This document shows, in pieces, positions 1,047 to 46,278 of a stretch of 53,557 bases of DNA. The notes beneath the pieces were generated by a model. That model ran no database searches and was not told the origin of the DNA. It saw only the letters and a program-made list of their open reading frames with translations. The stretch covers positions 1 through 53,557 of the forward strand of contig JAFSRW010000090.1 of the NCBI GenBank assembly GCA_017445925.1, written 5' to 3'. Within the stretch, counting starts at the first letter, position 1; every line of letters begins with the position of its first letter. The translations under genes and the position numbers were made by a program. The DNA is from Bacteroidaceae bacterium. Its GTDB lineage: Bacteria; Bacteroidota; Bacteroidia; Bacteroidales; Bacteroidaceae.

Positions 1047-2117
1047 ATGACAATGAAAGTCCAAACAATAAAGACCATCCGGCTGTGGATGTTGGCACTC
1101 ATCCTCATCTACGGCACAAGTGTATTCACATCGTGTAAGTCAGATGATGACAATCCGCCCAGCGAACATGACTACACGAGCATGCCGCTGGTCATACTCG
1201 ACACCGACATAGGCTCTTCCACCGACGACCTCTTCTCCTTAGAAATGCTCTATTACTATCAGAAGCAGGGACGCTGCAAACTGCTCGGCGTGGTGGTGGA
1301 CCGCGAGGGCGAGGATTGCGCCGCCTGTGCCGATGTGATGAATACGTACTTCAATAACGGTAACGTGCCCATCGGCTTGGTGCGCGAAGGTATCAAGAAC
1401 CCGAAGGTATGGATTGACTACAAGGCTCTGCCCGACTTCAAGAAGACCGACGGCACACCTATGTTCGCCCACAGCATCGGCGACTACTCAGCACTACCCG
1501 ACGGCTGGCAGCTTTACCGCAGTATACTTGCCGCGCAGCCCGACCACTCGGTGAGCATCTGCTCCATCGGCTTCACTGCCTGCCTCGCCCAGTTGCTTGA
1601 GTCCAAGGGCGACACCTATTCCCCGCTGTCGGGCGTGGAACTGGTGCGACGCAAGGTGAAGTGCCTCTACATCCAGGGCGGCTCCTTCGACCTGTCCCCC
1701 GAACCCGACTACAACTTCCTTCAAAGCATGGACTTTGCCAAGACTGTCTTCCGCCTCTGGCCCTCCGACGTAGACATCATCTTCGACCCTATGGAGACAG
1801 GCGACGGCATAGAGTACCTGCCTGAGCAAGTCATCAGCGATGTCTCATGGACCGACTATCACCCCATCAAACAAGTCTATATGACACGCAACTGCAACAC
1901 TGGCCAGAAGATGTGGGACCTACTGACCGTCATCAACGCTGTGGAGGGTGACGGACTCTTCACGCTGTCTGAGCGCGGCACCGTGAGGCTCAATGACGAC
2001 GGTACGGTCATCTTCACCCTTTCGGCCACAGGTAACAGTCGCGTCCAAATGCCTGGCGATGATGCCTGGTGCTCCGCCATGCTGGAGAAAATCCGCAACG
2101 TGAACAAGATACACTAA
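1047..2117 (+). CDS. Nucleoside-hydrolase-like lipoprotein
   Basis: About 356 aa. The N-terminus (MTMKVQTIKTIRLWMLAL...) is a signal peptide ending in a lipobox-like FTSC, so the mature protein is likely a lipid-anchored periplasmic or surface protein starting at that Cys. ATG 1047 (or 1053) is preferred over the upstream GTG because it gives a clean signal peptide. The mature domain begins LVILDTDIGSSTDDLFSLEML. This is the calcium-binding DTD-G-x-x-x-DD signature of inosine-uridine-preferring nucleoside hydrolases, which cleave ribonucleosides to base and ribose. A later segment (SICSIGFTACLAQLL) corresponds to the family's IGPLTNLA motif. The spacing in the Asp motif is unusual (GSSTDD), so substrate choice or activity may differ. 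It is bracketed by the two 51-bp repeats. Confidence 0.75.
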   Translation: MTMKVQTIKTIRLWMLALILIYGTSVFTSCKSDDDNPPSEHDYTSMPLVILDTDIGSSTDDLFSLEMLYYYQKQGRCKLLGVVVDREGEDCAACADVMNTYFNNGNVPIGLVREGIKNPKVWIDYKALPDFKKTDGTPMFAHSIGDYSALPDGWQLYRSILAAQPDHSVSICSIGFTACLAQLLESKGDTYSPLSGVELVRRKVKCLYIQGGSFDLSPEPDYNFLQSMDFAKTVFRLWPSDVDIIFDPMETGDGIEYLPEQVISDVSWTDYHPIKQVYMTRNCNTGQKMWDLLTVINAVEGDGLFTLSERGTVRLNDDGTVIFTLSATGNSRVQMPGDDAWCSAMLEKIRNVNKIH

Positions 2118-2144
2118 GAAAGGGACTAAAGCAAAGCTCAATTC

Positions 2145-2195
2145 AGAAGCAAGAACCCCACCACTAGGTGGTCAGATATCATACGGCTAAAATGA
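2145..2195 (+). repeat. 51-bp direct repeat, copy 2 (orphan coding tail)
   Basis: Encodes the same 16-residue tail as 976-1026, ending in TGA. The frame is closed by TAA at 2127-2129, 15 nt upstream of the repeat, with no start codon, so this is a gene-tail fragment and not an intact gene. Upstream residues K-A-Q-F weakly match K-H-D-Y of copy 1. Confidence 0.8.
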
Positions 2196-2268
2196 TTACG
2201 ACGAAACAGATAAAAGCAGCCAATGCAGAAGCGCAGATAGGCAGTAGCTCAGATTTTCTCAAAAAAAA

Positions 2269-2300
2269 TTTGCAGAATTCCTCACTTACTCGTATCTTTG
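2269..2300 (+). promoter_or_regulatory. Bacteroidetes-type promoter for the NRPS gene
   Basis: TTTG at 2269-2272, 20-nt spacer, TATCTTTG at 2293-2300. Transcription should start near 2307, about 18 nt before the NRPS start codon, so the leader is very short. Confidence 0.75.
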
Positions 2301-2324
2301 CCAATAAATTGTATATTAAACACC

Positions 2325-5300
2325 ATGAATATGACTCAGACACAGACGATTGCCGCGCTGTTCCGTCAGCAGGCGAAGGCGACTCCACAAAATGTCGCCG
2401 TGGTTTATAAAGATAAGCGGTACACTTATGCCGAAGTGGATGAAATCAGCGACCGCATAGCAGCATTTGTAGCCTCGAAAGGGCTGGGCAAAGAGGATGT
2501 CGTTGCCATTTTGATTCCACGTTGCGAGTGGATGCCCATTGCACCGCTCGGCGTATTGAAAGCTGGCTGCGCTTATCAGCCCCTGGACCCCACATACCCC
2601 CAGGAGCGTCTGAGATACATGATTCAGGATGCCCATGCCAAGTTGCTGATTGCCGACGAGGAGTTGCTGCCGCTGTTAGGCGATGTTACTACGCCACTCC
2701 TTCTGACTAAGGATATCAGCCAGTTGCCGCCTGTCACCGAGCCGTTGAAAGACCCTGACCCAACAGGTCTGGTGATGCTTGTTTATACTTCAGGAACCAC
2801 AGGACAACCCAAGGGCGTTATGCTGGAACAGCGCAACGTAGCCTCGTCTTCTGTTCCATTTGGAAAGTTCCTGGGCATGAAGGTCGGTAGCCGTGTAGCT
2901 AACTACGCCAGCTTCGGTTTTGTACCCACTGTTGTTGAGACATGGGGAGCCCTTTCTTTAGGTGCTACCCTGCACATCCTGGACAATGCCGAGCGCTTTG
3001 ACATGGGACGACTGAAAGCGTATATCCGCAAGGAAAGCATCACACATATTTTCATGACTACCATGATGGCTTATCAGTTTGCCGGCAGTATGGATGAAGA
3101 CACCACGCTGGAGGTGCTTAGTTGCGGTGGTGAGGCACTACCGCCTTTAACCCCACCGAAGCATATCCGAATGGTTAACTTCTACGGTAGTTCTGAGTGT
3201 ACGAGTATTGCCGGACATAACCTGATAGAGCGTGAAGAGCAGTCTATATTAGGCACCCCTCTGGGTGATACATCATTGGTTATTATGGCCGATAATGGTC
3301 AACCTGCCGCCCCTGGCGAAGAGGGTGAGCTTTGGGTAAGGGGGCCTCAGGTATGCCGTGGCTATCTGAATGCTCCTGAGCTGTCGGCCCAGAAAATAAT
3401 GGAAGACGACACATACGGCCGTATTTTCAAGACGGGCGACATCGTCAGACAGCGTGAAGACGGTGAACTGGTGTTCGTAGGCCGTCGTGACGGTATGGTG
3501 AAGATTCGCGGTTTCCGTGTCGAACTGAAAGAAGTGGAGGCTGTGATACGTGACTTTCCTGGTATCAAGGATGCCACAGTGCATGCTTTCGATACGGAAG
3601 GAGAAGGAGCTGGCAAGTACATTGCCGCCTACGTGGTGAGCGATTCTCCTGTCGACATAGAAGCACTGAACAAATTCATCTTTGAAAAGAAGCCACCATA
3701 TATGGTGCCTGAGGTGACGATGCAGATTGATGCCATCCCGATGAACCAAAACCAGAAAGTGGACAAGCGGGCACTGCCCAAGCCTGTCAGGTCTGCTGCA
3801 GTTCAGTCGCAACAAACAGCACAGGCCCCAATGAACGTGCTGGAGAAGGAGCTTCACGAGATTATTTCGAAGCTAGTGGGCAACAGCGACTTTGGCATCA
3901 CTACGGTGCTGGGCTACACTGGCCTTACATCCATTACGGCCATGAAACTGGCGGTAGAGGTCAATAAGCGCTACGGCATAGAGCTTGACGCTAAGTCGAT
4001 GGCGAAAGAAGTGACTATTCAGAGTATCGAGAACGAGATTATCAAAAGTCTGATGGATGGTGGAAGAAGTAAGAAGGGAGAGACGGAAACTCACCTTAAT
4101 CTTACCTCTGCTCCGCTCAACTACGCCCAGTTGGGTGTATATTACGAGTGCATGAAGCATCCGCTTGATGTCACCTATAATCTTCCCATTGCCATCACAC
4201 TTCCCTCTGGCGTTGATGCTGACAAGGTGGAAGAAACCCTGATACAGATTATTCAGGCACATCCTGCCTTCAACATCCACTTCGAGACACAGGGTGACGA
4301 CGTTGTCCAGGTGTACGATCCTGACCAGGAACCGCTGGTAACCCGTAACGAGATGACAGAAGAGGAACTGGCCGACTATCAACATCAATTTACACTGCCT
4401 TTCCACTTAGAGCGTGGTCCGCTCTACCGCATGGAAATCGTGCAAACAGAAAAGCGCGTAGTCATTCTGATGGACGTTCACCATCTCATCTCTGACGGAG
4501 CTTCGACAGACCTGATGCTACGTCAGTTATGCACTCTCCTCGACGGAGGTACCATAGATCGCGAACAGATAGGCTATCTGCAGTTCTCGCAGGAGCAGCG
4601 CCAAGCGGAGAATGGTCAGGAGTATCAGGAGGCCAAAGCCTACTTTGCTGAAGTAATGAAGGAGTGCGAGGGTTGTACGGAGATAACTGACGACTTCTCG
4701 CCCAGTGAACCTCACGGTCATGTTGCCCAGGTAACAAGAACCTTCGATTACAACAAAGTGGAGCAGTTCTGCAGGCAGCTGAATGTAACGCCTGCCAGCC
4801 TGATGCTTGCCGCAGCTTACTACACACTATCGCGATACACAAACAATCGTCATGTATATATCTCCACAATCAGCAATGGCCGTTCCGACTTGCGCCTGGC
4901 TGACACAACAGGTATGTTTGTTAACACCCTTCCATTGGCAGGACACATTACAGAACAGACCGTAGAGGAGTTCATCCGCCGTACAAGTCAGGATTTCGAA
5001 CAGACGATGCGACACGAGCAATACCCCTTCGCACGTATTGCTGCCGATTATGATTTCTCGGCTAACACAACCTACACTTATCAGTTGGGAGTGTTTGAAA
5101 AGCATACCGTTGGTGGCAAGAATATAGATGTCAAGTCGATTGAAGTAGATGTACCAAAACAGAAACTTGATATCATCATTATAGAACAGAACGGGCAACC
5201 TGTGGTCTGCCTTGAGTATGACGATGCCTTCTATAGTGAGAAGACGATAGCAGGGCTGGCAGAGTCCTACATAAGCGTTGTGGAGCATTTCATGGAAGCA

Positions 5301-8300
5301 CCGAAAAGCAGTCTTCTCAAGGTGTCGATGCTCAGTGAGGAGCAGGAACGTTTGATTAATTCGTTCCGTATGGCTGGCACAGCAGAAGTGCCTACCCGCC
5401 TGTTCCATCAAGCCGTTGAGGCAAATGCCGAGCAGAAGCCCGATGCCAAGGCCCTTGTGGCATGCGACGGTACCTTTACCTTCAGCCAATTAAATGCAGA
5501 GATGAACCGTGTGGCCAATGCGCTCATAGAGCACGGTGTAAAGCGCGGCGATCGTGTGGCTATGTTGCTACCGCGTACCAGCCGCCTCATCTTTACCATG
5601 TTCGGTATCATGAAGGCTGGTGCAGCATACATTCCTTGCGATCCGCATTATCCTGCAGACCGCATTAAGCTGATTCTTGAGGACAGTGAGGCTACCTATA
5701 TCGTTACAGATGAAGAAAACCTTGCAAATCTGAAGACACAGGCAGGTGAGGGAAGTCTCAAGGTATTGGAGAAAGCCCTGAACGTAGAAGATTTGTTGCA
5801 ATGCCAGAACACGGCTAACCCCGGTATTCCACAGGAAGGCAGCGACCTCGCGTACATTATTTATACGTCAGGTTCTACGGGTCGTCCAAAGGGTGTGATG
5901 CTTCACCACAAAGGTATCTGCAACGAACTCTTTGCCCATCCGCTCAACTTCCGCAACTGGACAGTGACGCAGGAGGTGAAGTGTATTCTCGGACTGGCCA
6001 CCATATCCTTCGATGCCTCTGTTGAGGAAATCGGTATTCCGCTGTACAATGGTCTTACCTTGGCATTAGCCAACGATGAGATTACCAATGATCCTATCCG
6101 TTTGGCGGAGTTTATGTTGGAGAACAACGTGGGCATGTTCCAAGGCACGCCCTCACGACTGATGCAGCTATACGAATCAGACATCTTCCGTCAGGCACTG
6201 GCAGGTTGCCGCATCATAGAACTGGGTGGTGAGAAATTCTCTGACAGCCAACTGTATGAACTGCAAAAGACCACCAAAGCCCATCTCTTCAACAGTTACG
6301 GCCCCACCGAGATAACGGTGGAGAGCAACAGTCACGAGGTGACGAACGACGAACACATCACCATCGGTCGTCCACTGGTGAACGTTACCGAATACATCGT
6401 GGATGCCGACATGAACCGCATTCCTTTAGGGGTTACAGGTGAACTGCTGATAGGTGGCGCACAGGTAGGCTTAGGTTATAACAACCTGCCTGAGAAGACC
6501 CGCGACGCCTTTATTCCCAATCCGTTCTTCCCTGACGACCCCATTGACAAAACATTGTACCGTTCTGGCGACTATGCCCGTTGGGACGAACGCGGCTACG
6601 TTAGTATCCTAGGACGTACAGACAATCAGGTGAAACTGCGTGGACTACGCATTGAATTAGGTGAGATAGAAAGCGTGATAGCCCAACAGGAGGGTATCGG
6701 TCAAGTGGTTGTGATGATTCGCAAGATTAACGGCAAGGAACACCTCTGTGCCTACTTCACTGCCAATCATCCAGTGGACATCGATGAACTGAAAGTAGAG
6801 ATAAGCAAGAGCCTGACCCAATACATGGTTCCTACCGCCTACCTGCAACTCGACAAAATGCCCACCTCGCCCAGTGGCAAGACCGACGTGAAGGCACTGC
6901 CTGAGCCTGTGCTTTCCGTAACAACAGAATATGTGGCACCGGCAAATGATCTGGAGAAACAGCTCTGCGACATCTTCGCTGATATCCTACAGGTAGAACG
7001 TGTAGGAGCCACCGATGACTTCTTTGAACTGGGTGGTACGTCACTCGTCGTAACACGTTTGATTATAGATGTAGATAAAATAGGGCACCATCTGGTATAT
7101 GGAGATGTCTTTGACAATTCTACACCCCGACAGATTGCTGCTCTATTGAAAGGTGAGAATTCTGAAGAGAGTGGTGGATTGGAGTCTGAAGTTAAGGACT
7201 TCGACTATACCGCCATTGAAAAAGTACTGGCTGGTAGCACAATAGACGCTTTCCGTAAAGGTACTCCACTCACGTTAGGGAATGTTTTCCTGACGGGAGC
7301 TACAGGATACCTGGGCATTCACCTGCTCCACGAGCTCATCAATTCCGAGGCTGAGACGATTACTTGCCTTGTACGTGCCAAGACTCAATCAGATGCCCAG
7401 CAGCGCTTGCAGACGCTTCTGTACTACTATTTTGCATCAGCCTATCGCGAGTTCTTTGAAAACGGACGACTTCGGGTCATCAAGGGTGATGTGACGGACG
7501 ACCTCTGTTCAATCTGTTGTGATGACGCAGCAACAAGCTACGACACCGTATTCAATTGTGCTGCCATCGTGAAACACTTCTCCAAGGACGGCGACATCGA
7601 ACGAGTCAACGTAGAAGGTACGCAACGCTGCGTAGATTTCTGCTTGAAGACGGGAGCTAAGCTTATTCAGGTTTCCACCGTTAGCGTGGGCGGTTTCCTT
7701 ACGCATGGTGAGACGGCAGACAAAGCCTTCCTGGACGAGCAACATCTGTTTATGAACCAATATTTCGGCAACCAGTATACCCTTTCGAAATTCCTTTCTG
7801 AGCGTATCGTTCTCGATGCCGTTGCTACCAAGGGACTCGTTGGAAAGGTTATGCGTGTAGGCAACCTCGCTGCCCGTTCTACAGACGGTGAGTTCCAGGT
7901 GAACTTCCAAACCAACAGCTTCGCAAACAGGATGCGCGCCTTCAGCTTAATTGGTTGCTGTCCTTATGAGAGTTTCAAAGACCCTGTTGAGTTCTCTCCC
8001 ATCAACGAGGTGGCACATGCCATTTGTCTGCTGACTACCACACCACGCGAGTGTTGTATATTCCATCCTTACAACAACCACAGCGTGTTCCTTGGTGACG
8101 TACTCCGTGAACTGGATTCTGTAGGTACCCCCGTGTACATGGTAGAGCAGGAGGAGTTCAGGAAGAGACTGGATCAGGTGAAGTCCGACCCGCAGAAGGT
8201 AGAGCGTCTACAGAGTCTGGTGGCATATAGCGATGTCACTCACGGCCAAGAGGCTATTCCCGTACAGGAAGTCAACGACTTCACCATGCAAGTGCTTTAC

Positions 8301-8390
8301 CGTCAGGGCTTCTTCTGGTCTCCAACGTCTTGGGACTATGTTGACCGCTTCTTCCAGACTATTGCAGGCTTTGACTTCTTTGATAATTAA
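2325..8390 (+). CDS. Two-module NRPS with terminal thioester reductase (A-T-C-A-T-R)
   Basis: 2021 aa; ATG 2325 lies just after the promoter. Order: adenylation 1 (to about 490; A3 VYTSGTTGQPKG near 150, KTGD, NQNQKVDK), carrier 1 (GLTSI serine near 535), condensation (HHLISDG near 718), adenylation 2 (IYTSGSTGRPKG near 1178, FNSYGPTE, YRSGD, SPSGKTDVK), carrier 2 (FFELGGTSL near 1565), reductase (GATGYLG near 1657; YTLSK near 1818). No leading condensation domain makes module 1 the loading module. The reductase should release the dipeptidyl thioester with NAD(P)H as an aldehyde, which may cyclise to a dihydropyrazinone or pyrazinone. This architecture is known from gut bacteria making protease-inhibiting peptide aldehydes. 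In domain 1 the FDAS motif reads FVPT, so the Asp that binds the substrate amino group is missing. No phosphopantetheinyl transferase is adjacent; fmt follows 44 nt downstream. Confidence 0.95.
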   Translation: MNMTQTQTIAALFRQQAKATPQNVAVVYKDKRYTYAEVDEISDRIAAFVASKGLGKEDVVAILIPRCEWMPIAPLGVLKAGCAYQPLDPTYPQERLRYMIQDAHAKLLIADEELLPLLGDVTTPLLLTKDISQLPPVTEPLKDPDPTGLVMLVYTSGTTGQPKGVMLEQRNVASSSVPFGKFLGMKVGSRVANYASFGFVPTVVETWGALSLGATLHILDNAERFDMGRLKAYIRKESITHIFMTTMMAYQFAGSMDEDTTLEVLSCGGEALPPLTPPKHIRMVNFYGSSECTSIAGHNLIEREEQSILGTPLGDTSLVIMADNGQPAAPGEEGELWVRGPQVCRGYLNAPELSAQKIMEDDTYGRIFKTGDIVRQREDGELVFVGRRDGMVKIRGFRVELKEVEAVIRDFPGIKDATVHAFDTEGEGAGKYIAAYVVSDSPVDIEALNKFIFEKKPPYMVPEVTMQIDAIPMNQNQKVDKRALPKPVRSAAVQSQQTAQAPMNVLEKELHEIISKLVGNSDFGITTVLGYTGLTSITAMKLAVEVNKRYGIELDAKSMAKEVTIQSIENEIIKSLMDGGRSKKGETETHLNLTSAPLNYAQLGVYYECMKHPLDVTYNLPIAITLPSGVDADKVEETLIQIIQAHPAFNIHFETQGDDVVQVYDPDQEPLVTRNEMTEEELADYQHQFTLPFHLERGPLYRMEIVQTEKRVVILMDVHHLISDGASTDLMLRQLCTLLDGGTIDREQIGYLQFSQEQRQAENGQEYQEAKAYFAEVMKECEGCTEITDDFSPSEPHGHVAQVTRTFDYNKVEQFCRQLNVTPASLMLAAAYYTLSRYTNNRHVYISTISNGRSDLRLADTTGMFVNTLPLAGHITEQTVEEFIRRTSQDFEQTMRHEQYPFARIAADYDFSANTTYTYQLGVFEKHTVGGKNIDVKSIEVDVPKQKLDIIIIEQNGQPVVCLEYDDAFYSEKTIAGLAESYISVVEHFMEAPKSSLLKVSMLSEEQERLINSFRMAGTAEVPTRLFHQAVEANAEQKPDAKALVACDGTFTFSQLNAEMNRVANALIEHGVKRGDRVAMLLPRTSRLIFTMFGIMKAGAAYIPCDPHYPADRIKLILEDSEATYIVTDEENLANLKTQAGEGSLKVLEKALNVEDLLQCQNTANPGIPQEGSDLAYIIYTSGSTGRPKGVMLHHKGICNELFAHPLNFRNWTVTQEVKCILGLATISFDASVEEIGIPLYNGLTLALANDEITNDPIRLAEFMLENNVGMFQGTPSRLMQLYESDIFRQALAGCRIIELGGEKFSDSQLYELQKTTKAHLFNSYGPTEITVESNSHEVTNDEHITIGRPLVNVTEYIVDADMNRIPLGVTGELLIGGAQVGLGYNNLPEKTRDAFIPNPFFPDDPIDKTLYRSGDYARWDERGYVSILGRTDNQVKLRGLRIELGEIESVIAQQEGIGQVVVMIRKINGKEHLCAYFTANHPVDIDELKVEISKSLTQYMVPTAYLQLDKMPTSPSGKTDVKALPEPVLSVTTEYVAPANDLEKQLCDIFADILQVERVGATDDFFELGGTSLVVTRLIIDVDKIGHHLVYGDVFDNSTPRQIAALLKGENSEESGGLESEVKDFDYTAIEKVLAGSTIDAFRKGTPLTLGNVFLTGATGYLGIHLLHELINSEAETITCLVRAKTQSDAQQRLQTLLYYYFASAYREFFENGRLRVIKGDVTDDLCSICCDDAATSYDTVFNCAAIVKHFSKDGDIERVNVEGTQRCVDFCLKTGAKLIQVSTVSVGGFLTHGETADKAFLDEQHLFMNQYFGNQYTLSKFLSERIVLDAVATKGLVGKVMRVGNLAARSTDGEFQVNFQTNSFANRMRAFSLIGCCPYESFKDPVEFSPINEVAHAICLLTTTPRECCIFHPYNNHSVFLGDVLRELDSVGTPVYMVEQEEFRKRLDQVKSDPQKVERLQSLVAYSDVTHGQEAIPVQEVNDFTMQVLYRQGFFWSPTSWDYVDRFFQTIAGFDFFDN

Positions 8391-8434
8391 CTTGTAATTC
8401 CTAAAAGAAATCGCGTTCGAGAACCAAGAATTAG

Positions 8435-9394
8435 ATGAAGAAAGACATAAGAATCGTATTTATGGGGACACCAGACTTTGCTGTCCCCTCATTAGCCAAA
8501 CTGGTAGATAACGGGTATAATGTGGTGGGGGTTGTTACGATGCCTGACAAAGCCATAGGAAGACATCATGATGTCCTGCAGTCAAGCCCCGTAAAACAAT
8601 ATGCCGCCACCCATAATATTCCCGTGCTTCAACCAGAGAAACTGAAAGACGAAGAATTCCTGTCGGCGTTGCACAATCTTAAGGCTGACCTGCAGATTGT
8701 AGTTGCTTTCAGGATGCTGCCTCAAGTGGTTTGGGGAATGCCTCGCCTGGGTACCTTTAACCTGCATGCAGCTCTGCTACCACAATATCGAGGTGCTGCT
8801 CCCATTAACTGGGCTATCATCAATGGTGACAAAGAGACGGGTATCACTACATTCTTTCTGGACGAGAACATAGATACAGGCCGTATTATCCTTCAGGAGC
8901 GTATCCCCATAGGAGAAGAGGATTGCCTGGAGGACATACACGACCGCATGATGATGCAAGGGGCTGACCTGGTACAGAAGACTGTAGACCTGATAGCTGA
9001 AGGTAAAGCGGAGGCTATTGACCAGGAACAGTTTATGACAGATGAGCCGCTCCGCCCTGCACCCAAAATCTTCAAGGAAACCTGTGAGATAAAGTGGGCA
9101 AGCACCGAGGGAGTATACAATTTTATAAGAGGATTGAGCCCCTACCCTGCTGCCTGGACAACCCTGCATACTCAGGATGGGAAAGAAGTGGTGATGAAAA
9201 TCTTCAAGAGCAGGAAAGAAACTGCATTGACAGACGTTAAAAAACCCACCCTTCAGACAGACAACAAGACATACCTGCGCGTAGCTTTGCCCGATGGGTA
9301 TCTTTATCTGAAAGAAGTGCAGATTTCCGGCAAAAAACGTATGCAAATTGAGGACTTTCTGCGTGGTGCTCGTACTGAAGGATGGGCATTATAA
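8435..9394 (+). CDS. fmt: Methionyl-tRNA formyltransferase
   Basis: 319 aa, the usual length. The enzyme transfers a formyl group from 10-formyltetrahydrofolate to initiator Met-tRNA in the cytoplasm. Visible features: an N-terminal formyltransferase Rossmann fold (FMGTPDFAVPSL), the core NLHAALLPQYRGAAPINWAI with the substrate-binding His, TGITTFFLDENIDTG, and the C-terminal OB-like domain with SPYPAAWT. The usual HASLLP reads HAALLP, a mild change outside the catalytic His. It sits 44 nt after the NRPS gene with no terminator seen between them, so some transcription may be shared, although fmt is an unrelated housekeeping gene. Confidence 0.95.
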   Translation: MKKDIRIVFMGTPDFAVPSLAKLVDNGYNVVGVVTMPDKAIGRHHDVLQSSPVKQYAATHNIPVLQPEKLKDEEFLSALHNLKADLQIVVAFRMLPQVVWGMPRLGTFNLHAALLPQYRGAAPINWAIINGDKETGITTFFLDENIDTGRIILQERIPIGEEDCLEDIHDRMMMQGADLVQKTVDLIAEGKAEAIDQEQFMTDEPLRPAPKIFKETCEIKWASTEGVYNFIRGLSPYPAAWTTLHTQDGKEVVMKIFKSRKETALTDVKKPTLQTDNKTYLRVALPDGYLYLKEVQISGKKRMQIEDFLRGARTEGWAL

Positions 9395-9413
9395 TAAAAA
9401 AAATGACAAAAAA

Positions 9414-9445
9414 TTTGGAAGATTGCTTAAAAAGTGTTTCCTTTG
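9414..9445 (+). promoter_or_regulatory. Putative promoter for the sigma factor gene
   Basis: TTTG at 9414-9417, 20-nt spacer, TTCCTTTG at 9438-9445 (TAnnTTTG with one mismatch). The implied leader is long, about 75 nt before ATG 9529. Confidence 0.5.
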
Positions 9446-9528
9446 CACAAGTAAACTCGTAAAATAACTAATTTAAATATCATTGCCTATAGAGAAAACA
9501 TTACACCGAAACATTTAAAACAAGCGTA

Positions 9529-10119
9529 ATGAAGAATCTAAGTACAAGTACCGACTATGAGTTGGTAGAATTGTATGAGAATGGTAATGATAATGCTTTT
9601 GACGAGTTGTTACAGCGTCATCAAAGTTATGTATACTCCTATATTCTCTTCCTTGTAAAAGAAGAGGATGTGGCTGATGATATCTTCCAGGAGACCTTTA
9701 CACGTGCCATTATGGCCATACGTAGCCATAAATATCAGACAACAGGCAAATTCAGTGCCTGGCTTATTCGCATTGCACACAATCTGATAATTGACTCTAC
9801 ACGTGAAACGGAATCTGGAATGCTGGTTACACAAGAGAAATTCTCCCCCATCATTCTTAACGATATACGTCTGAGTGAAGGCGGAATAGAAACAAACATC
9901 ATTGAACAGCAGAAAGCCGACCAGTTGCGGAAGCTACTGGACTACTTGCCAGAAGTTCAGCGTGAGGTTGTTCTTTTACGCTTTTATGAAGACCTAAGCT
10001 TTAAGGAGATTGCTGAGAAGACTGGCGTTAGCATCAACACATCGTTAGGCCGTATGAGATATGCACTTATTAATCTCAGAAAATTAGTACAGCAGCATAA
10101 TCTTGCATTGGTAGGATAA
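9529..10119 (+). CDS. RNA polymerase sigma factor, ECF/sigma-70 family
   Basis: 196 aa. Region 2 is recognisable (AFDELLQRHQSYVYSYILFLV, then DVADDIFQETFTRAI and the WLIRIAHNLIIDSTR segment that melts promoter DNA). Region 4 follows with a helix-turn-helix (LPEVQREVVLLRFYEDLSFKEIAEKTGVSINTSLGRM). Regions 1 and 3 are absent, as in ECF sigma factors. No anti-sigma gene with a membrane segment is adjacent, so control may be transcriptional or through the small downstream ORF. It is likely a group conserved in Bacteroidales, but I cannot name its regulon. Confidence 0.9.
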   Translation: MKNLSTSTDYELVELYENGNDNAFDELLQRHQSYVYSYILFLVKEEDVADDIFQETFTRAIMAIRSHKYQTTGKFSAWLIRIAHNLIIDSTRETESGMLVTQEKFSPIILNDIRLSEGGIETNIIEQQKADQLRKLLDYLPEVQREVVLLRFYEDLSFKEIAEKTGVSINTSLGRMRYALINLRKLVQQHNLALVG

Positions 10120-10209
10120 AAAAAAATCACTTTTTATACAATATTTTGCCGATTCGGTACGTTTTATTTGTAAAGACAGTAAGCAAATAAATAATACCGA
10201 ATTGTGCCT

Positions 10210-10326
10210 ATGGAACAAGTATTACCTCTACCTTACATTCAACCCAGCGTTGCCGTTTTGACACGCATACGCCAATTTGCGCGGACATATCGCCCCCAGT
10301 ATATAACAAACATAAAGCTCTGCTAA
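10210..10326 (+). CDS. Possible 38-aa small basic protein
   Basis: Encodes a 38-aa peptide beginning MEQVLPLPYIQPSVAVLTR, rich in Arg and Tyr and ending NIKLC. The stop codon at 10324-10326 lies one base before the rpe ATG at 10328, an arrangement typical of translational coupling. No homologue is recognised. It may be a genuine conserved small protein or a leader peptide for rpe. The compact fit and the lack of any other explanation for this gap are the main support. Confidence 0.4.
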   Translation: MEQVLPLPYIQPSVAVLTRIRQFARTYRPQYITNIKLC

Positions 10327-10327
10327 C

Positions 10328-10972
10328 ATGATAGTGTCACCCTCGCTATTATCGGCCAACTTTGCCGACCTGAAGAGCGAAATGGAATGGTTCAACCAAA
10401 GTACAGCCGACTGGTTGCACCTTGATATTATGGATGGCGTTTTCGTTCCCAACATATCATTTGGTTTTCCCGTTCTGAAACATGTGGCAAGATTGTGCAA
10501 GAAGCCGCTTGATGTTCACCTGATGATTGTACAACCCGAGAAGTTTGTGCAGGAGGTGAAAGATTTGGGTGCATACCTTATGAACGTACACTATGAGGCC
10601 TGCCCTCATCTGCATCGTGTGATAGGGCAGATTCATGAGGCTGGCATGAAGGCTGGTGTTACGCTGAACCCTGCCACACCTGTAAGTGTGTTGCAGGACA
10701 TCATAAAAGATGTGGATCTGGTGCTGCTGATGAGTGTTAATCCTGGCTTTGGCGGCCAGAAGTTCATCCCTCACACCACAGAGAAAGTGAAGGAGCTACG
10801 CAAGTTGATAGACCAAACAGGCAGCAAAGCCCTTATAGAAATTGACGGTGGTGTAAACCAGGAAACTGGTAAGTTGCTGAAAGAAGCAGGTGCAGATGTG
10901 CTAGTAGCAGGGAACTTCATCTTCAAGGCTCCCAATCCATCCGATGCCTGCGCACAACTTAGCGCTTTATGA
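10328..10972 (+). CDS. rpe: Ribulose-phosphate 3-epimerase
   Basis: 214 aa. Interconverts ribulose-5-phosphate and xylulose-5-phosphate in the pentose phosphate pathway, in the cytoplasm. The TIM-barrel signatures are clear: PSLLSANFADL at the start, LHLDIMDGVFVPNISFG carrying the metal and catalytic Asp, DVHLMI, MSVNPGFGGQKFI, and IDGGVN with the second catalytic Asp. Its TGA overlaps the ATG of comEC (ATGA), so the two are translationally coupled. Confidence 0.96.
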   Translation: MIVSPSLLSANFADLKSEMEWFNQSTADWLHLDIMDGVFVPNISFGFPVLKHVARLCKKPLDVHLMIVQPEKFVQEVKDLGAYLMNVHYEACPHLHRVIGQIHEAGMKAGVTLNPATPVSVLQDIIKDVDLVLLMSVNPGFGGQKFIPHTTEKVKELRKLIDQTGSKALIEIDGGVNQETGKLLKEAGADVLVAGNFIFKAPNPSDACAQLSAL

Positions 10973-12117
10973 TCATCAGACAGCCCCTTATTTGGGCTAC
11001 GCCCTTATATATAATAGGTATACTGCTGGGGAACTTGCTCTCCAGCATTTTCTTTTTATACGCTTCCGTTGCCATACTGGTAGCGGGTATGCTGCTAAGG
11101 AAGAAAACATTTGTAGCAGATGCCCTGCTCTTTGCCTTTTGGATAACGCTTGGAATGGCACGCATAGGAATGGAAAAGGAGATGCCATCCGAGAACCAGC
11201 TTTATAAGGTTGTATGCCTAAAGGCGCGACAACAGCAGGAAGCGATGACGGAACGGTTGCGTGATGCAGGTCTTGACGAAAAATCTTTATCTATCAGTTC
11301 GGCTTTACTTTTGGGACAAAAATCAGGATTGGCCAAAGAAACACGAAAGAAATACGCCCAAGTGGGCGCATCGCATCTCTTAGCCTTAAGCGGTATGCAT
11401 CTGGGCATTATATACGGAATCCTGTATATGCTCTTTATCAGACGTATCCGATTCAGCGAATGGAAATGGTTTTGGCTACCGCCCATACTTCTTACCATCT
11501 GGGGCTATGCTTTCATTGCAGGAATGCCCATATCATTAGTAAGAGCCAGCATTATGTTCTCCTTAGCTACCATTGCCACCTTTGCACAAAACGACACGCC
11601 CCCATTACACATTCTGGCATTGAGCGCTCTGACGATATTACTATTTAAGCCCAGCGCCCTCTTCGGAATTAGCTTTCAACTTTCCTTTCTGGCTGTGTTC
11701 TTCATTATTGTTTTATATCAGCCCTTAAGAGAGATAATAAGACTGCGCAATGTCATAACGGACACGTTAATGTTATCTGTCGTTGCCCAGTTAGGAACAG
11801 CACCACTAAGCATCTACTATTTTCACACGCTGCCTTTAACAGGCGCCATAGTCAGCGTGATATTGATTCCGCTCACCACCATTATCATCTATCTGGGACT
11901 CCTCACATTGCTTATTCCAATAGAATGTATTGCATGGTTGCTTACCATCGTCATAAAGACACAAGACTGGATTGTAGAGTCTTTAGCAAGCATTCCGTAT
12001 ACTACCATAACAGGACTTTACCCTACCTGGTGGCAAGTATTGCTGGTATACCTGCTATTGCTGTGCATAATAGCAAGAAGCCATATCCAATGGAAACGCG
12101 AGGATTTTAATCTGTAG
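10969..12117 (+). CDS. comEC: ComEC/Rec2-type DNA-uptake channel, short form
   Basis: 382 aa, polytopic membrane protein. The competence-domain hallmark ASHLLALSGMHLGIIYGILYML is present, followed by several hydrophobic helices (LVRASIMFSLATIATFAQ..., FGISFQLSFLAVFFIIV). It starts within the rpe stop codon. Full-length ComEC proteins run to about 650-800 aa, with an N-terminal OB insertion and a C-terminal metallo-beta-lactamase domain. Here the N-terminal domain is abbreviated and the nuclease-like C-terminal domain is absent. The role is probably transport of single-stranded DNA across the inner membrane, though a different role is possible. The 3' end overlaps clcA by 11 bp, convergently. 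Confidence 0.85.
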   Translation: MIIRQPLIWATPLYIIGILLGNLLSSIFFLYASVAILVAGMLLRKKTFVADALLFAFWITLGMARIGMEKEMPSENQLYKVVCLKARQQQEAMTERLRDAGLDEKSLSISSALLLGQKSGLAKETRKKYAQVGASHLLALSGMHLGIIYGILYMLFIRRIRFSEWKWFWLPPILLTIWGYAFIAGMPISLVRASIMFSLATIATFAQNDTPPLHILALSALTILLFKPSALFGISFQLSFLAVFFIIVLYQPLREIIRLRNVITDTLMLSVVAQLGTAPLSIYYFHTLPLTGAIVSVILIPLTTIIIYLGLLTLLIPIECIAWLLTIVIKTQDWIVESLASIPYTTITGLYPTWWQVLLVYLLLLCIIARSHIQWKREDFNL

Positions 12118-13897
12118 AGAGATCCGCTAACATTTGCCTGTAAACAGTAAGGACGGAGCTCTTGCGGATAAAACCAACGAATACCCCCTCGTCATCTACA
12201 ACAGGCAGCGTCCAGGCATGTGTCCTGTCGAACGTTGCTACCACTACATCCATAGAATCGTTAACCGTAAGGATGCCCTCGGGTTGCTTCATCAACTGAG
12301 CAACAGTAAACTGTCTGTACAACTCAGAACGGAAGATAAGATGACGGATATCATCCAGATATACAGCCGCAACGAACTGCATCTGCTTATTTACTACAGG
12401 GAAAACATGATTCTTGCTGTTGCTGACCTGATTGGCTACATCACCCAGCGTCATATCAGGATACAGCACCTGATCATAATGCTGTATCACACTATCCATA
12501 CTCATAAGGGTAAGTATAGACTTGTCGGTATGATGGGTAAGCAACTCGCCTCGTTGAGCCAGACGCATAGCATAAATGCTGTGAGGCTCAAAGGCCTTTA
12601 TTGTCAAATAGGCCATAACCGATACCACCATCAGCGGCATGAAAAGCTGATAGCCGCCCGTCAACTCAGCAATTAGGAAGATACCAGTAAGTGGAGCATG
12701 CATAACACCACTCATGAGACCACACATGCCCAACATAGCAAAGTTACGTTCCGGAATCTGGAAGCCCAACACATCATATATATTCCACAAACGGCAGAAG
12801 ATAAAACCGCATATACAGCCCAAGAACAGACTGGGAGCAAAGATACCACCACAACCGCCACCTCCATTGGTAGCTGTAGAGGCAAATACCTTAAAGACGA
12901 TTATCAGGAACAGATAAACCAACAGATGGTTACTGCCATAGAACAAAGAACGATCCATAGCAGTATTCCAATCTGCTTCTCCTGTTCCATTCAGCAGTAA
13001 CGTAATTAAATCATAACCTTCACCATATAGCGAGGGAAACAAGTAAATGAGCAAACTCAGCATTATGGCTCCAAAAACGAACTTCTTATACCGTCCCTGA
13101 AGCTTTCTGAAAATGCCTTCCAGCAAGTTCATGGTTCTGGTGAAGTACAGGGCAACCAAGCCGCATACTCCGCCTAAGGCCAGATATGCAGGAAGTCTTT
13201 CCACTGTAAAAACATCCTGAAGATGAAACTCAAAGATAGGATTAATACCGGATACGGCAAAGGTAAGTGCTGCTGCAGTAACACAACTTACCAATAACGG
13301 CAGAAGGCTGGTCATGGTAAGGTCTATCATCAGCACCTCCAGCACGAAGACAAGTCCTGCTATAGGCGCCTTAAAAATACCTGCCACAGCACCTGCGGCT
13401 CCACACCCTACCAGCAGCATCATCTGCTTACTGCTAAGCCTGAATATCTGACCAAAGGTACTACCTATGGCGCTACCCGTCAACACAATAGGAGCCTCGG
13501 CTCCCACACTACCTCCAAAGCCGATGGTTATGGCACTAGCCACGACTGACGTCCATGTGTTATGAGGCTTTATCTGACTCTGCTTTCTGGCAAGAGCAAA
13601 AAGAATCTTGGTAACTCCATGACTGATATCATCACGCACCACATAACGGATGAAGAGCATGGTAAGCCAAATACCAATAACAGGATATACAAGATATAGC
13701 CAGTTGGCTGTTGATTCCACAAAACTCTGAGTAAGAAGATGCTCGATCTGACCAATCAACCACTTCAGCAGCAATCCGGCACAAGCAGTAAAGATGCCGA
13801 CAAAGAAACTGACAACAAGTACAAACTGATTGTCGTTCAAATGTCTGCGACGCCAACGTAGCACATAGGCCAATATATCCCTGCTTCTCCTTCTCAT
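12107..13897 (-). CDS. CLC-type chloride channel/antiporter with CBS pair
   Basis: 596 aa. The N-terminal CLC membrane domain has the selectivity motifs GGSVGAEAP and GGGCGGIFAP. In the first, the gating glutamate lies in the GxxExP-like segment. A cytoplasmic C-terminal domain of about 135 aa holds two CBS motifs (DMTLGDVANQV..., DSMDVVVATFDRTHAWTLPVVDDEGVFVGFI). It moves chloride, probably in exchange for protons, across the inner membrane. CBS domains usually sense adenine nucleotides. The gene begins 2 nt after the end of tsaC, so both are in one leftward transcript. Confidence 0.93.
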   Translation of the reverse strand: MRRRSRDILAYVLRWRRRHLNDNQFVLVVSFFVGIFTACAGLLLKWLIGQIEHLLTQSFVESTANWLYLVYPVIGIWLTMLFIRYVVRDDISHGVTKILFALARKQSQIKPHNTWTSVVASAITIGFGGSVGAEAPIVLTGSAIGSTFGQIFRLSSKQMMLLVGCGAAGAVAGIFKAPIAGLVFVLEVLMIDLTMTSLLPLLVSCVTAAALTFAVSGINPIFEFHLQDVFTVERLPAYLALGGVCGLVALYFTRTMNLLEGIFRKLQGRYKKFVFGAIMLSLLIYLFPSLYGEGYDLITLLLNGTGEADWNTAMDRSLFYGSNHLLVYLFLIIVFKVFASTATNGGGGCGGIFAPSLFLGCICGFIFCRLWNIYDVLGFQIPERNFAMLGMCGLMSGVMHAPLTGIFLIAELTGGYQLFMPLMVVSVMAYLTIKAFEPHSIYAMRLAQRGELLTHHTDKSILTLMSMDSVIQHYDQVLYPDMTLGDVANQVSNSKNHVFPVVNKQMQFVAAVYLDDIRHLIFRSELYRQFTVAQLMKQPEGILTVNDSMDVVVATFDRTHAWTLPVVDDEGVFVGFIRKSSVLTVYRQMLADLSTD

Positions 13898-13899
13898 CC

Positions 13900-14469
13900 T
13901 TATCCTCTAATAATCTTCACCTCTCCGTCCTTTGTCAACTTAATAATCTGACTGGGTTGGGCCTTAGACTTTTCTCCTCGGCGGAAGTTGACAATATAGT
14001 CCACCTGATTCTTTATCTCTTCTGAAATATCATAGAAGTTCTGTGGCGAAGGCTCGCCGCTGATATTGGCACTGGTACTGACAATAGCCTTTTGGAACCT
14101 GTAACACATCTGTCTGCTGAACTCCTCATGCGTTACCCTGATGCCCAAACTGCCATCTTCAGCAAGAAGGTTGGGAGCAATGTTCACGGCATCGTCCAAA
14201 ATCAGCGTCAATGGCTTGGTGGCATAATCTACCAAATCCCAAGCTACGTCAGGTACGTTGCGGAAATAGCGTTGCATACGGTCGGCACTATCTACCAGAC
14301 AAATAAGTGCCTTGCTATCCTCGCGTTTCTTTATCTCGTAGACACGGCGTACTGCATCTGCGTTTGTAGCATCACAACCTATACCCCAGATGGTGTCTGT
14401 GGGATAGAGGATAACTCCGCCCTTACGCAGTACCTCAACAGCATTCTTTATATCTAATTCGCAATTCAT
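13900..14469 (-). CDS. tsaC: L-threonylcarbamoyladenylate synthase (Sua5/YciO/YrdC family)
   Basis: 189 aa. The family makes threonylcarbamoyl-AMP from Thr, bicarbonate and ATP for tRNA t6A37 formation. Recognisable motifs: VLRKGGVILYPTDTIWGIGCDA at the start, KKREDSKALICLV, PLTLILDDA, LGIRVTHEEF, and IVSTSANISGEPSP. It is the single-domain short form without the Sua5 C-terminal extension. It lies between prfC and the CLC channel on the same strand. Confidence 0.92.
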   Translation of the reverse strand: MNCELDIKNAVEVLRKGGVILYPTDTIWGIGCDATNADAVRRVYEIKKREDSKALICLVDSADRMQRYFRNVPDVAWDLVDYATKPLTLILDDAVNIAPNLLAEDGSLGIRVTHEEFSRQMCYRFQKAIVSTSANISGEPSPQNFYDISEEIKNQVDYIVNFRRGEKSKAQPSQIIKLTKDGEVKIIRG

Positions 14470-14518
14470 ATTTTGGTTCCTTCAAGTCACCCTTTAACCT
14501 TTTAACATTTTAACCTTA

Positions 14519-16120
14519 TCAAAACTCGCTGGTAAAATGGAACTTTATATGTTCAAAGTCTTGCTGGGCCATACTAAGCACATACCCGCTGTCGGCAAGG
14601 AACACATCCCTACCCTCGCGGTCTTTAGCCAGATACTGGTACTTACGCTTCTTAAACTGCTCCAGTTCTGCCTCGTAACCTGGCTCACATTCTATCCAGC
14701 AAGCCTTATACAGACTCACAGGTTCCCAACGGCACTTGGCATTATACTCGTTCTCCAGTCGGTATTGGATAACCTCGAACTGCAACTGACCCACTGTACC
14801 TATAATCTTTCGATTGTTGAACTGGTTGACAAAGAGCTGGGCCACACCCTCATCCATTAGCTGACTGATACCTTTCTCCAACTGTTTGGTCTTCATGGGG
14901 TCGGCATTCTCGATGTACTTAAACATCTCAGGCGAGAAAGAAGGTAGTCCGCGGAAATGCAACAATTCTCCCTCTGTCAGCGTATCTCCAATCTTAAAAA
15001 TACCATTGTCAGGCAAACCTACGATATCTCCGGGCCAAGCCTCATCGATGGTTTCCTTGCGCTGCGCCATAAACTGGGTAGGACTGCTGAAACGCAACGT
15101 CTTTCCGTTACGAACATGCAAATAAGGCGCATTACGGACAAACTTACCAGAACAAACCTTGCAGAAGGCAATACAACTGCGATGGTTGGGGTCGATGTTG
15201 GCTGTTATCTTAAAGATAAAACCAGTGAACTTATCTTCCTCTGGCCTTACCTCGCGCTCCTCTGCTGTAGTGGGACGTGGATAAGGAGCTATCTTCACAA
15301 AACAATCCAGCAACTCCTGAACACCAAAGTTATTAAGGGCAGAGCCAAAAAATACAGGTGCCACCTCAGCATCCAGATAAGCCGATGTACCATCCTCCGA
15401 AGTACCTATCACCTCCTCTACGGTTGGGTAAACACCCTCTATCATCTCTAAGTCCTCACGCAGCTTAGCTGCATCATCCTCACCTACTGCGTTGTCGAGC
15501 TCGACAGAATCGAGCTCAACACTTACCTTCTCCGTCACTTTCTGTTTGTTTGGTGTGAAAAGGTTAAGATTCTGTTCATAAATATTATATACGCCCTTGA
15601 AGCGCATACCCTGATTGATAGGCCAGCTCAAAGGACGAACCTTAATCTTCAGTTCTTCTTCCAATTCATCCAGCAAATCGAAGGGATCCTTACCTTCACG
15701 ATCCATCTTGTTCACGAAAATGATAACGGGTGTCTTGCGCATACGGCAAACCGTCATCAACTTACGCGTCTGGGCCTCAACGCCCTTGGCTCCATCTACT
15801 ACTATGATGGCACTATCTACAGCTGTCAGCGTACGAAACGTATCTTCGGCAAAGTCCTGGTGACCAGGCGTATCAAGTATATTTACCTTATATCCTTCGT
15901 AGTCAAACTCCATCACGCTGGTTGTTACAGAGATACCACGTTGTTTCTCTATCTCCATCCAGTCGCTAGTAGCTGTTTTCTTAATCTTATTGCTTTTTAC
16001 AGCGCCTGCCACCTGAATCTGTCCTCCAAAGAGTAGCAGTTTCTCCGTTAGTGTAGTCTTACCCGCATCAGGATGCGAGATAATGGCAAACGTTCTTCTT
16101 CTTTCTATTTCTGCGTTCAT
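14519..16120 (-). CDS. prfC: Peptide chain release factor 3
   Basis: 533 aa, the full family length. This GTPase recycles RF1/RF2 from the ribosome. Visible motifs: P-loop [29 protein letters not shown] (switch I), DTPGHQDF (switch II), NKMDREG and the later EF-G-like domains ([26 protein letters not shown]). The start is chosen at [22 protein letters not shown] short iterated-word repeat lies in the gap upstream. Confidence 0.97.
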
Positions 16121-44907: not shown

Positions 44908-46278
44908 TTAAAGTGCGTTCAATTTCTCTTTCAATATGTCAATACCTGCTACAGCCGTTGTCTTGATATGTTTAAAGCCATAGATAGCTTGCCCGTAGGA
45001 CTCACTTGGGTCGATGATAAAACACGGAATTCCCCATGTTACTGAGTCCGTGAGATTTGCAGCAGGATAAACATGGAGCGAGGTTCCTATGACAACAAAG
45101 ATATCGGCTTCTTCGGCAATTCTTTTAGCCTTCGTCATGTTTGGCACGTTCTCACCAAAGAAAACGATGTAAGGTCTCAGTTGGGAACCATCAGCAGCTT
45201 TCTCGCCTATTAAGATTGGTTCATCCAGCGGCTTTTCTACAATGCACTTCGGGTCATTGGGATTATTCGAACCTGTTACTTTCCTCAATTCCCCATGCAG
45301 ATGAAGCACATTTGTAGAGCCTGCTCGCTCATGAAGGTCATCCACATTTTGCGTGATGATACTTACATTATACTCTTTTTCCAATTCGGCCAAAACATAA
45401 TGCGCATGATTGGGCTCTACAGTCAGTAGGTTCTTTCTTCGGGCATTGTAGAACTCCAGTACTTTAGCCCTGTCCCTGCGATAACCCTGAATACTTGCTA
45501 ATTCTTGAGCATTGAAGTTCTGCCACAAACCATCCTTGTCACGAAAAGTGCTCAACCCGCTCTCCTTGCTAATGCCTGCCCCCGTCAGTACCACCAGATT
45601 TTTCTTGTCACCTTCCTTCTTATACCAACTGGCTAACAGATAGGGATTCTTTTTCTTCTCGTATCCAATTGTTGACTCCAAATCATGCCCAGGCCATATT
45701 TTACAATCGTCAGGAAGCAAAGTCGTTATGTATTTCAAGCTATTCGTCAAATCCACATCATACCCAAATAGAGAATGAGTACTTCCAATGCTTTTTTTGA
45801 AAAGAGTGTCACCAGTAAATGCAACATGTTCTTTCTCGCAGTAGAAAACAGCACTGCCAGGTGAATGACCTGGAGTATGAAGAGTTATCAGATAATGTGA
45901 GCCAAATGCTATAACCTCATTATCCTCCAAATAATGCTTTGGCTTTACAATATCATATTCGAATCCTCCTATACCAAAGACTTCCTCTATTCTCATTTCT
46001 ATGCGATCCATCCAGAGCTTATCCCTATGATGAACTTCCGGATACAAGCCAAACTCATCACGTACCTGATCACATGATAGCAGATGGTCGTAATGTCCAT
46101 GTGTCAGCAGGCATCTAACAGGCTTCAATTCTTCGTTTCGGATATAATCAAGGAACTGTCCTCTTTCGTAACTGTCCCAAGCACAAGGATCTATGATAAC
46201 ACACTCTTTTGTCTCATCGCTTACTACATAGCAATTAGCTTTCGTAGTATTAAAACAGAATCTCTCAACTTTTATCAT
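44908..46278 (-). CDS. MBL-fold hydrolase fused to a Sir2-family NAD-dependent deacylase
   Basis: 456 aa. Residues 1 to about 222: MBL domain (THGHYDHLLSCDQV, GHSPGSAVFYC, FTGDTLF, PGHDLESTIGYEKKKNPY). Residues 227-456: sirtuin (VVLTGAGISKESGLSTFRDKDGLW; TQNVDDLHERAGSTNVLHLHGEL with catalytic His; VVIGTSLHVYPAANL). The zinc Cys tetrad is absent, as in a zinc-less Bacteroidetes Sir2 clade. FYNARRKNL keeps the Tyr-x-x-Arg that in CobB/SIRT5 binds negatively charged acyl groups, suggesting desuccinylase- or demalonylase-type activity. A hydrolase that could act on acyl thioesters joined to a lysine deacylase suggests clearance of reactive acyl donors and their protein adducts. That is inference; the joined reading frame has no break. 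Confidence 0.9.
   Translation of the reverse strand: MIKVERFCFNTTKANCYVVSDETKECVIIDPCAWDSYERGQFLDYIRNEELKPVRCLLTHGHYDHLLSCDQVRDEFGLYPEVHHRDKLWMDRIEMRIEEVFGIGGFEYDIVKPKHYLEDNEVIAFGSHYLITLHTPGHSPGSAVFYCEKEHVAFTGDTLFKKSIGSTHSLFGYDVDLTNSLKYITTLLPDDCKIWPGHDLESTIGYEKKKNPYLLASWYKKEGDKKNLVVLTGAGISKESGLSTFRDKDGLWQNFNAQELASIQGYRRDRAKVLEFYNARRKNLLTVEPNHAHYVLAELEKEYNVSIITQNVDDLHERAGSTNVLHLHGELRKVTGSNNPNDPKCIVEKPLDEPILIGEKAADGSQLRPYIVFFGENVPNMTKAKRIAEEADIFVVIGTSLHVYPAANLTDSVTWGIPCFIIDPSESYGQAIYGFKHIKTTAVAGIDILKEKLNAL

Follow-up and report, generated by a model that had tools for sequence, protein, structure and literature searches.

A stand-alone, reductase-terminated nonribosomal peptide synthetase from a Bacteroidaceae bacterium, predicted to make an N-capped basic aldehyde

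Contig JAFSRW010000090.1 of a Bacteroidaceae bacterium (assembly GCA_017445925.1; the whole stretch of 53,557 nucleotides is referred to as the window) carries a nonribosomal peptide synthetase (NRPS) gene at positions 2325..8390 on the forward strand. The open reading frame (ORF) list, Pfam, and a motif scan identify its product as a 2021-amino-acid (aa) enzyme with the domain order adenylation-carrier-condensation-adenylation-carrier-reductase (A-T-C-A-T-R). We suggest, with a probability of roughly 0.57, that this single gene encodes a synthetase for an N-acyl amino aldehyde. Our best guess from the sequence is N-acyl-lysinal, capped like leupeptin, and the product is likely a protease blocker. 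The original prediction for this gene was a dipeptide aldehyde or a pyrazinone; it had skipped the pockets of the A domains, and neither the "dipeptide" nor the "pyrazinone" finds support there. The enzyme appears to work like the aldehyde synthetases of gut bacteria but seems to fail a defining feature of the free-amine dipeptide/pyrazinone type.

Adenylation pockets and the predicted product

The ten pocket positions of the loading domain A1 (2343..3797) and of A2 (5397..6917), both located by Pfam and pocket alignment, follow GrsA numbering and were taken by motif; the columns were identical whether A1 or A2 served as the anchor. A table with the same numbering is found in PMC11355689. The A1 code reads VPVMLCFSIK, with Val at position 235 (codon 2922..2924) and Pro at 236; its ninth letter is less certain, as position 331 of A1 lies in a gap in a larger alignment. 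The A2 code, DAESILSVEK, retains Asp235, and its positions 239 and 331 are glutamates. Asp235 holds the alpha-amine of amino acids (PMC11355689), and A domains for keto acids typically have an aliphatic residue at this position (PMC10949194). Without the amine-binding Asp235, A1 probably supplies a first unit other than an alpha-amino acid. The first eight letters of the A2 code, DAESILSV, are identical at 7/8 positions to the bacitracin lysine code BacB-M1-Lys, DAESIGSV (PMC3207962, Table 2), and A2 is predicted to take a basic, Lys-like amino acid.

The occurrence of Asp235 was counted over 142 A-domain rows with a length of 420 aa or more, shorter rows (including first domains) being excluded. 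It is present in all 124 rows that stand behind a C domain and missing in 13 of the 18 that come first in their protein (12 with Val, one with Ile). These 13 rows represent 12 distinct genes (our labels L022 and L103 denote one gene), among which the window and L022 as well as L013 and L079 are near-copies. Asp235 is thus lost at the loading position only, consistent with a starter that has no alpha-amine. The five first domains that have Asp235 belong to L025, L026, L058, L031, and L052; in L031, about 250 unassigned residues precede the first A domain, and L052 is a fragment cut by a contig end. When 393 genomes of the order were sampled, four had a match to A1 at E <= 1e-90, one of them its own genome. 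Among 98 genomes surrounding L031, the Lachnospiraceae relative, three match the A1 core at E <= 1e-45; one of the three is L031 itself, which has Asp235.

Several observations weigh against this assignment. The first A domains of L025, L026, L031, and L058 keep Asp235, and loading position alone therefore does not explain its loss. Moreover, a keto-acid domain that retains Asp235 has been proposed (PMC10949194), which makes this residue an imperfect marker. Pocket codes also mispredict: the row that names BacB-M1-Lys in PMC3207962 concerns another A domain, and a second predictor disagreed there. Finally, A2 has Leu at position 301 where the BacB-M1-Lys code has Gly.

How do the pockets bear on the pyrazinone? 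In the usual route a free N-terminal amine meets the aldehyde, and a starter without an alpha-amine would close it; because A1 lacks Asp235, the product likely has no N-terminal amine with which to cyclise. We regard it as rather improbable that A1 takes an alpha-amino acid despite the missing Asp235 and that a free-amine dipeptide aldehyde then cyclises to a pyrazinone as with AusA. AusA has the same domain order, the NRPS reaches 963.9 bits with the NCBIfam AusA model (best stretch residues 607-2018), and on chemical grounds free ammonia together with a keto-acid starter could still lead to a pyrazinone. In addition, dipeptide aldehydes of gut NRPSs have been isolated as pyrazinones (PMC12327764, PMC8210680), and the aureusimine route is described in PMC8210680. 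However, the cut-off of the AusA model, 2500 bits, is not reached, and Val in place of Asp235, next to Pro at 236, sets A1 apart from the 124 A rows behind a C domain. Another unlikely starter is a beta-amino or aromatic amino acid, e.g., an anthranilate; the product would then be a fused-ring imine like that of the tilivalline pathway. Loading domains of this kind are also without Asp235 and the class includes R-terminated enzymes, but beta-amino acid pockets usually have Asp at 236, where A1 has Pro, and the tilivalline partner is proline, where A2 looks basic. Moreover, a by-eye look recognised no matching pathway gene beside the NRPS.

For the N-acyl amino aldehyde, the reaction would proceed as follows. 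A phosphopantetheinyl transferase (PPTase) encoded elsewhere would arm T1 and T2. A1 would load T1 with a carboxylic acid that is small and nonpolar and has no alpha-amine (an alpha-keto, alpha-hydroxy, branched, or aryl acid). A2 would load lysine (or ornithine/arginine) onto T2. The C domain would couple the A1 acid to the A2 amino acid, after which the R domain would reduce the thioester with NAD(P)H and release the acyl-lysinal. In this scenario, the A1 cap replaces the acyl group that is thought to be added by an N-terminal C domain in related C-A-T-C-A-T-R enzymes. Lysinal can cyclise with its own side chain, and the aldehyde, free or as this cyclic imine, would inhibit proteases that cleave after Lys/Arg. 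Acyl-capped small peptide aldehydes do inhibit proteases (PMC10548850). The metabolite to seek hence changes from a pyrazinone to an N-capped basic aldehyde, which suggests screening extracts with aldehyde traps and trypsin-like proteases.

In domain order and active-site motifs the original prediction holds. The frame is intact, with no internal stop from the ATG at 2325, and the profile search of each domain against Pfam (two AMP-binding stretches, one Condensation, two PP-binding, and one NAD_binding_4) gives the order A-T-C-A-T-R. Motifs A3 and A8 are present in both A domains; the A10 pattern as written missed both, and by alignment the invariant Lys517 is present in each. By Pfam and motif, T1 occupies 3831..4052, with its Ser in GLTSIT (codon 3930-3932), the C domain 4095..5372, with an unmutated HHLISDG at 4479-4499, and T2 6930..7163, with the carrier Ser in LGGTS. 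The R domain (7215..8387; Pfam, PDB match, and motif) follows the last T domain and carries the Rossmann motif TGATGYLG at 7293 together with STVSV at 7674 and YTLSK at 7776, which supply the catalytic Ser/Thr, Tyr, and Lys, likewise unmutated. Its best PDB match is 6vtj (220 bits), presumably from Methanobrevibacter ruminantium, followed by the AusA reductase (120 bits). Release as an aldehyde, as originally predicted, is thus supported by the sequence. PF01648 has one match in the genome, in a 204-aa frame away from the NRPS; by its size and sequence this frame looks like an Sfp-type PPTase, in line with the PPTase that the original prediction expected elsewhere.

Some R domains reduce further, in a four-electron reaction, to the alcohol, which counts against the aldehyde. 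Reduction to the alcohol here, or a role of the product as a signal or metal binder instead of a protease inhibitor, appears unlikely. Among eight large window proteins scanned, a protease target or resistance gene was not recognised, which is in line with such a role; on the other hand, among solved R domains 6vtj and that of AusA are nearest, and AusA yields an aldehyde (PMC8210680).

Exchange of domains among relatives

Relatives of the enzyme are common in the genus, where 60 of 139 genomes, the window's own included, match the NRPS at E <= 1e-150. The nearest named record, RGIG6899, is a Bacteroidaceae assembly from sheep rumen (99% identical). Other named relatives are mostly labelled Prevotella or Prevotellaceae, and several records come from the rumen or other ruminant stomachs. 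Compared domain by domain (A1, T1, C, A2, T2, and R), identity to the window is 88, 88, 82, 91, 91, and 82% in L027; 58, 71, 81, 92, 88, and 80% in L025, which has three modules; 51, 82, 81, 90, 67, and 55% in L024; and 47, 85, 80, 89, 72, and 50% in L029. Nine rows (the window and L022-L029) group together at 100/100 both in the tree of the last C domain and in that of the last A domain. Just seven of these nine are grouped in the R tree (100/100), where the R domain of L029 joins L057, L058, and L064 at 100/100. Together, identities and trees suggest that L024 and L029 have the T1-C-A2 stretch in common with the window, and neither A1 nor R, while L025 and L026 have everything from T1 to R in common with it, preceded by an amino-acid-type A domain and with an extra module in front. 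We infer that the loading pocket, the C-A2 unit, and the reductase have been exchanged separately in this NRPS family.

A similar exchange is suggested within A1. In bins of 40 residues, A1 is 72 and 85% (one end) and 80 and 85% (the other end) identical to the second A domain of L025 in the outer two bins, and 20-51% identical in bins 4-9. With the first A domain of L030, identity is 57-85% in bins 3-10 and 47-62% in the outer bins. At 188 informative sites, 117/127 within A1 positions 73-390 favour L030 and 54/61 outside favour L025; this contrast between core and flanks is such that 0 of 20,000 permutations give as large a drop. Three further amino-acid-type partners also gave 0/20,000, with edges at 73-92 and 390-401. 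The core defined by this site-partition test (2544..3497, edges approximate) includes the substrate-binding part and differs in affinity from its flanks, and its right edge coincides with the A8 motif. On these comparisons A1 is a mosaic, with ends like those of amino-acid-type domains and a substrate-binding core like that of the acid-type A1 of L030, and its pocket seems to have been acquired from a relative by exchange. The core tree places all 12 acid-type rows used in one group (100/100). The flank tree has no acid-type group, yet constraining it to have one is not rejected (p-AU 0.362, approximately unbiased test; L030 sits on a long branch), so that the exchange may have run in either direction. 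Selection on the A1 core could likewise contribute to the mosaic pattern.

Exchange is seen most clearly where two forms of the enzyme occur at one chromosomal site. L023 has two modules and an acid-type A1; L025 has three modules and is of the amino-acid type. Their DNA aligns on both sides at 81% identity: L023 2484-7760 corresponds to L025 1-5283, ending about 0.4 kb inside the NRPS gene, a second piece pairs L023 8573-13488 with L025 9183-14125, and farther downstream L023 14578-20516 pairs with L025 15629-21561. The interval between pieces one and two measures 3.9 kb in L025 (the remainder of its first A domain, a T and a C domain, and the core of its second A domain) and 0.8 kb in L023 (the acid-type core). 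Thus, a single block replacement separates the acid-primed two-module from the amino-acid-primed three-module enzyme. A MATE exporter gene follows the NRPS in L025 and is absent in L023.

Collectively, these data lead to a broader, more tentative proposal, to which we give somewhat less than an even chance. Rumen Prevotella-like bacteria would possess combinatorial aldehyde synthetases in which the Lys-type C-A2 is kept while loading pockets, extra modules, and reductases are recombined. In the window lineage, one exchange within A domains would have converted a three-module, amino-acid-primed enzyme to an acid-primed enzyme of two modules, or the other way round; the outcome would be lysinal protease inhibitors with different caps, each made by one gene. 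The proposal gains from the occurrence of both forms at the site common to L023 and L025. Evolution, acting through separate exchange of pocket, C-A2, and reductase, would retain the part that fits the protease pocket and vary the cap. Natural A-core exchanges that seemingly cross substrate classes (amino acid/non-amino acid) would be useful for engineering, and several of the named relatives come from ruminant stomachs, where proteolysis decides the use of feed protein.

The gene and its surroundings

In the ORF listing the frame is 2298..8390 with a TTG start. The ATG at 2325 is the likely start, because the TTG falls within the -7 box of a Bacteroidota-type promoter (TTTG-N20-TATCTTTG; 2269..2300, forward strand), a pattern match that bears out the promoter of the original prediction. 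The pattern TTTG-N18..22-TAnnTTTG occurs eight times in the window against 1.13 expected, and 0 of 100 shuffles reach eight. By eye, the promoter stretch is nearly kept before the L022 gene, and the DNA farther upstream differs. The ratio of nonsynonymous to synonymous substitution (dN/dS) is 0.034 relative to L022 (99% identical) and 0.082, 0.084, and 0.075 relative to L023, L027, and L028 (83-87% identical), these last three ratios being rough at synonymous distances of 0.9 to 1.35. At dN/dS 0.03-0.08, the gene is under purifying selection, as judged from these comparisons. It is also the sole place with a condensation domain in the assembly (83.7% complete). That the gene is a decaying or silent leftover is very hard to credit: the NRPS is without the MATE exporter whose homologues flank 18/61 relative rows, but its frame and motifs are intact, selection is evident, and the promoter is kept in L022.

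As predicted, no tailoring gene was recognised adjacent to the NRPS, which stands alone. Downstream, fmt starts 45 bp past the NRPS. No second full-length fmt was found in the assembly: PF00551 matches one further frame, which at 194 aa has the size of purN. We had considered fmt as a dedicated formyltransferase, since the best PDB match of A1 is linear gramicidin synthase LgrA, which has a formylation domain; the idea was rejected, as fmt is the only full-length copy and stands in the same order in L022. LgrA was again the match when the A1 core was compared with the PDB (E <= 1e-25, 27 sequences), and a keto- or aryl-acid enzyme was recognised in none of these. The genes past fmt are presumably an ECF sigma factor, rpe, and comEC. 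L022 has the same downstream order on the fmt side, and by eye its upstream sequence diverges from the window's just before the promoter.

Conserved neighbours of window-type genes were not found: the fmt side is common to L022 only, and L023, L024, L027, L028, and L029 each have different genes. Neighbours were surveyed for 61 rows with a terminal R domain (phmmer, E <= 1e-5; flank lengths vary and are short for many). A homologue of the L025 MATE exporter lies in the flank of 18/61 rows (15 on the 3' side, three on the 5'), and a homologue of the L026 STAS protein in that of 19/61, some more than 1 kb off and one neighbour being counted for two rows. Neither was found in the flanks of the eight window-type rows (seven genes: window, L022/L103, L023, L024, L027, L028, and L029), and the window's genome has just a distant homologue of the MATE exporter (23% identity). 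RND pump genes follow the L027 NRPS and an MFS gene precedes the three-module L030 NRPS. In L031, a MATE exporter fused to a histidine-kinase-like ATPase domain (13099-14907) lies beside the NRPS, and the residues ahead of its first A domain (6321-7085) have no match to the window's domains. L067 has tandem reductase-terminated NRPS genes (1487-13202; frames of 2431 and 1465 aa, 23 bp between them), and in L082 and L071 the NRPS is followed by a frame of 701 and 605 aa, respectively, with a start like that of a stand-alone adenylation enzyme (first 30 residues compared).

Upstream, positions 999-2117 hold a nucleoside-hydrolase-like gene (Pfam match below the curated cut-off). A 47-bp direct repeat (976-1022 and 2145-2191, 94% identical) flanks it, and a 35-base pattern from this repeat, allowing up to three mismatches, occurs only at those two sites in the assembly. 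RSKNPTTRWSDIIRLK, which the repeat can encode, closes a 48-aa frame with a sub-threshold match to the end of DUF4113 (22.7 bits, Pfam cut-off 24). The G+C content at third codon positions of the hydrolase-like gene is 74% vs 47.6-55.5% in other measured stretches, and gene plus repeats look like an inserted cassette. In L024, a nucleoside-hydrolase-like gene 62.5% identical to the window's (6633-7697, reverse strand) adjoins the NRPS in the opposite direction. Elsewhere in the window, a 456-aa frame (44908-46278, reverse strand) combines a metallo-beta-lactamase fold (glyoxalase II-like, residues 14-184) with a CobB-like sirtuin domain (233-405), a fusion that looks unusual.

Comparison with known systems

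Like AusA/PznA of Staphylococcus, which are dimodular with a terminal reductase (PMC8210680), the window enzyme has A-T-C-A-T-R in one protein and a related R domain. The AusA dipeptide aldehyde cyclises (PMC8210680), whereas the window A1 has Val at 235 by two anchors instead of the Asp of an alpha-amino-acid loading domain, and the AusA score is far below the cut-off. Gut dipeptide aldehydes were reportedly described by Guo et al. in 2017. In characterised examples of such NRPSs, an N-terminal C domain installs the cap. The cap in the window enzyme would instead come from the loading A domain, and its aldehyde residue is predicted to be basic; what is shared with these systems, including that for ruminopeptin of Ruminococcus bromii, is a gut-bacterial aldehyde, in some cases with an N-acyl tail (PMC12327764, PMC8210680). 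Leupeptin, livipeptin, and similar basic-ended aldehydes combine an N-acyl cap with a basic amino aldehyde and inhibit trypsin/papain, as predicted here, but they come from other gene sets, livipeptin from a C-less A-T-R protein plus a tRNA-using enzyme (PMC10548850).

The NRPSs of Methanobrevibacter ruminantium are also from the rumen, and genes for a MatE exporter and an anti-sigma factor antagonist are among the neighbours of their mru0068 (PMC2812497). Homologues of such neighbour genes adjoin a number of the window NRPS's relatives; the window gene has neither, and module number and order as well as the archaeal host differ. A rumen survey counts NRPS clusters, and the words "aldehyde" and "reductase" appear nowhere in its main text (PMC8241843). 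A-core subdomain swaps, in which much of the A core is exchanged and the C-terminal subdomain kept, are called widespread in bacterial NRPSs (PMC8097286), and the A1 mosaic resembles them. The swaps described there exchange individual amino acids, whereas here one core class seemingly takes none and a whole module moves too. The window enzyme thus belongs to a known kind, the reductase-ended synthetases predicted to release aldehydes; what would be new is the predicted shuffled family with a changeable N-cap.

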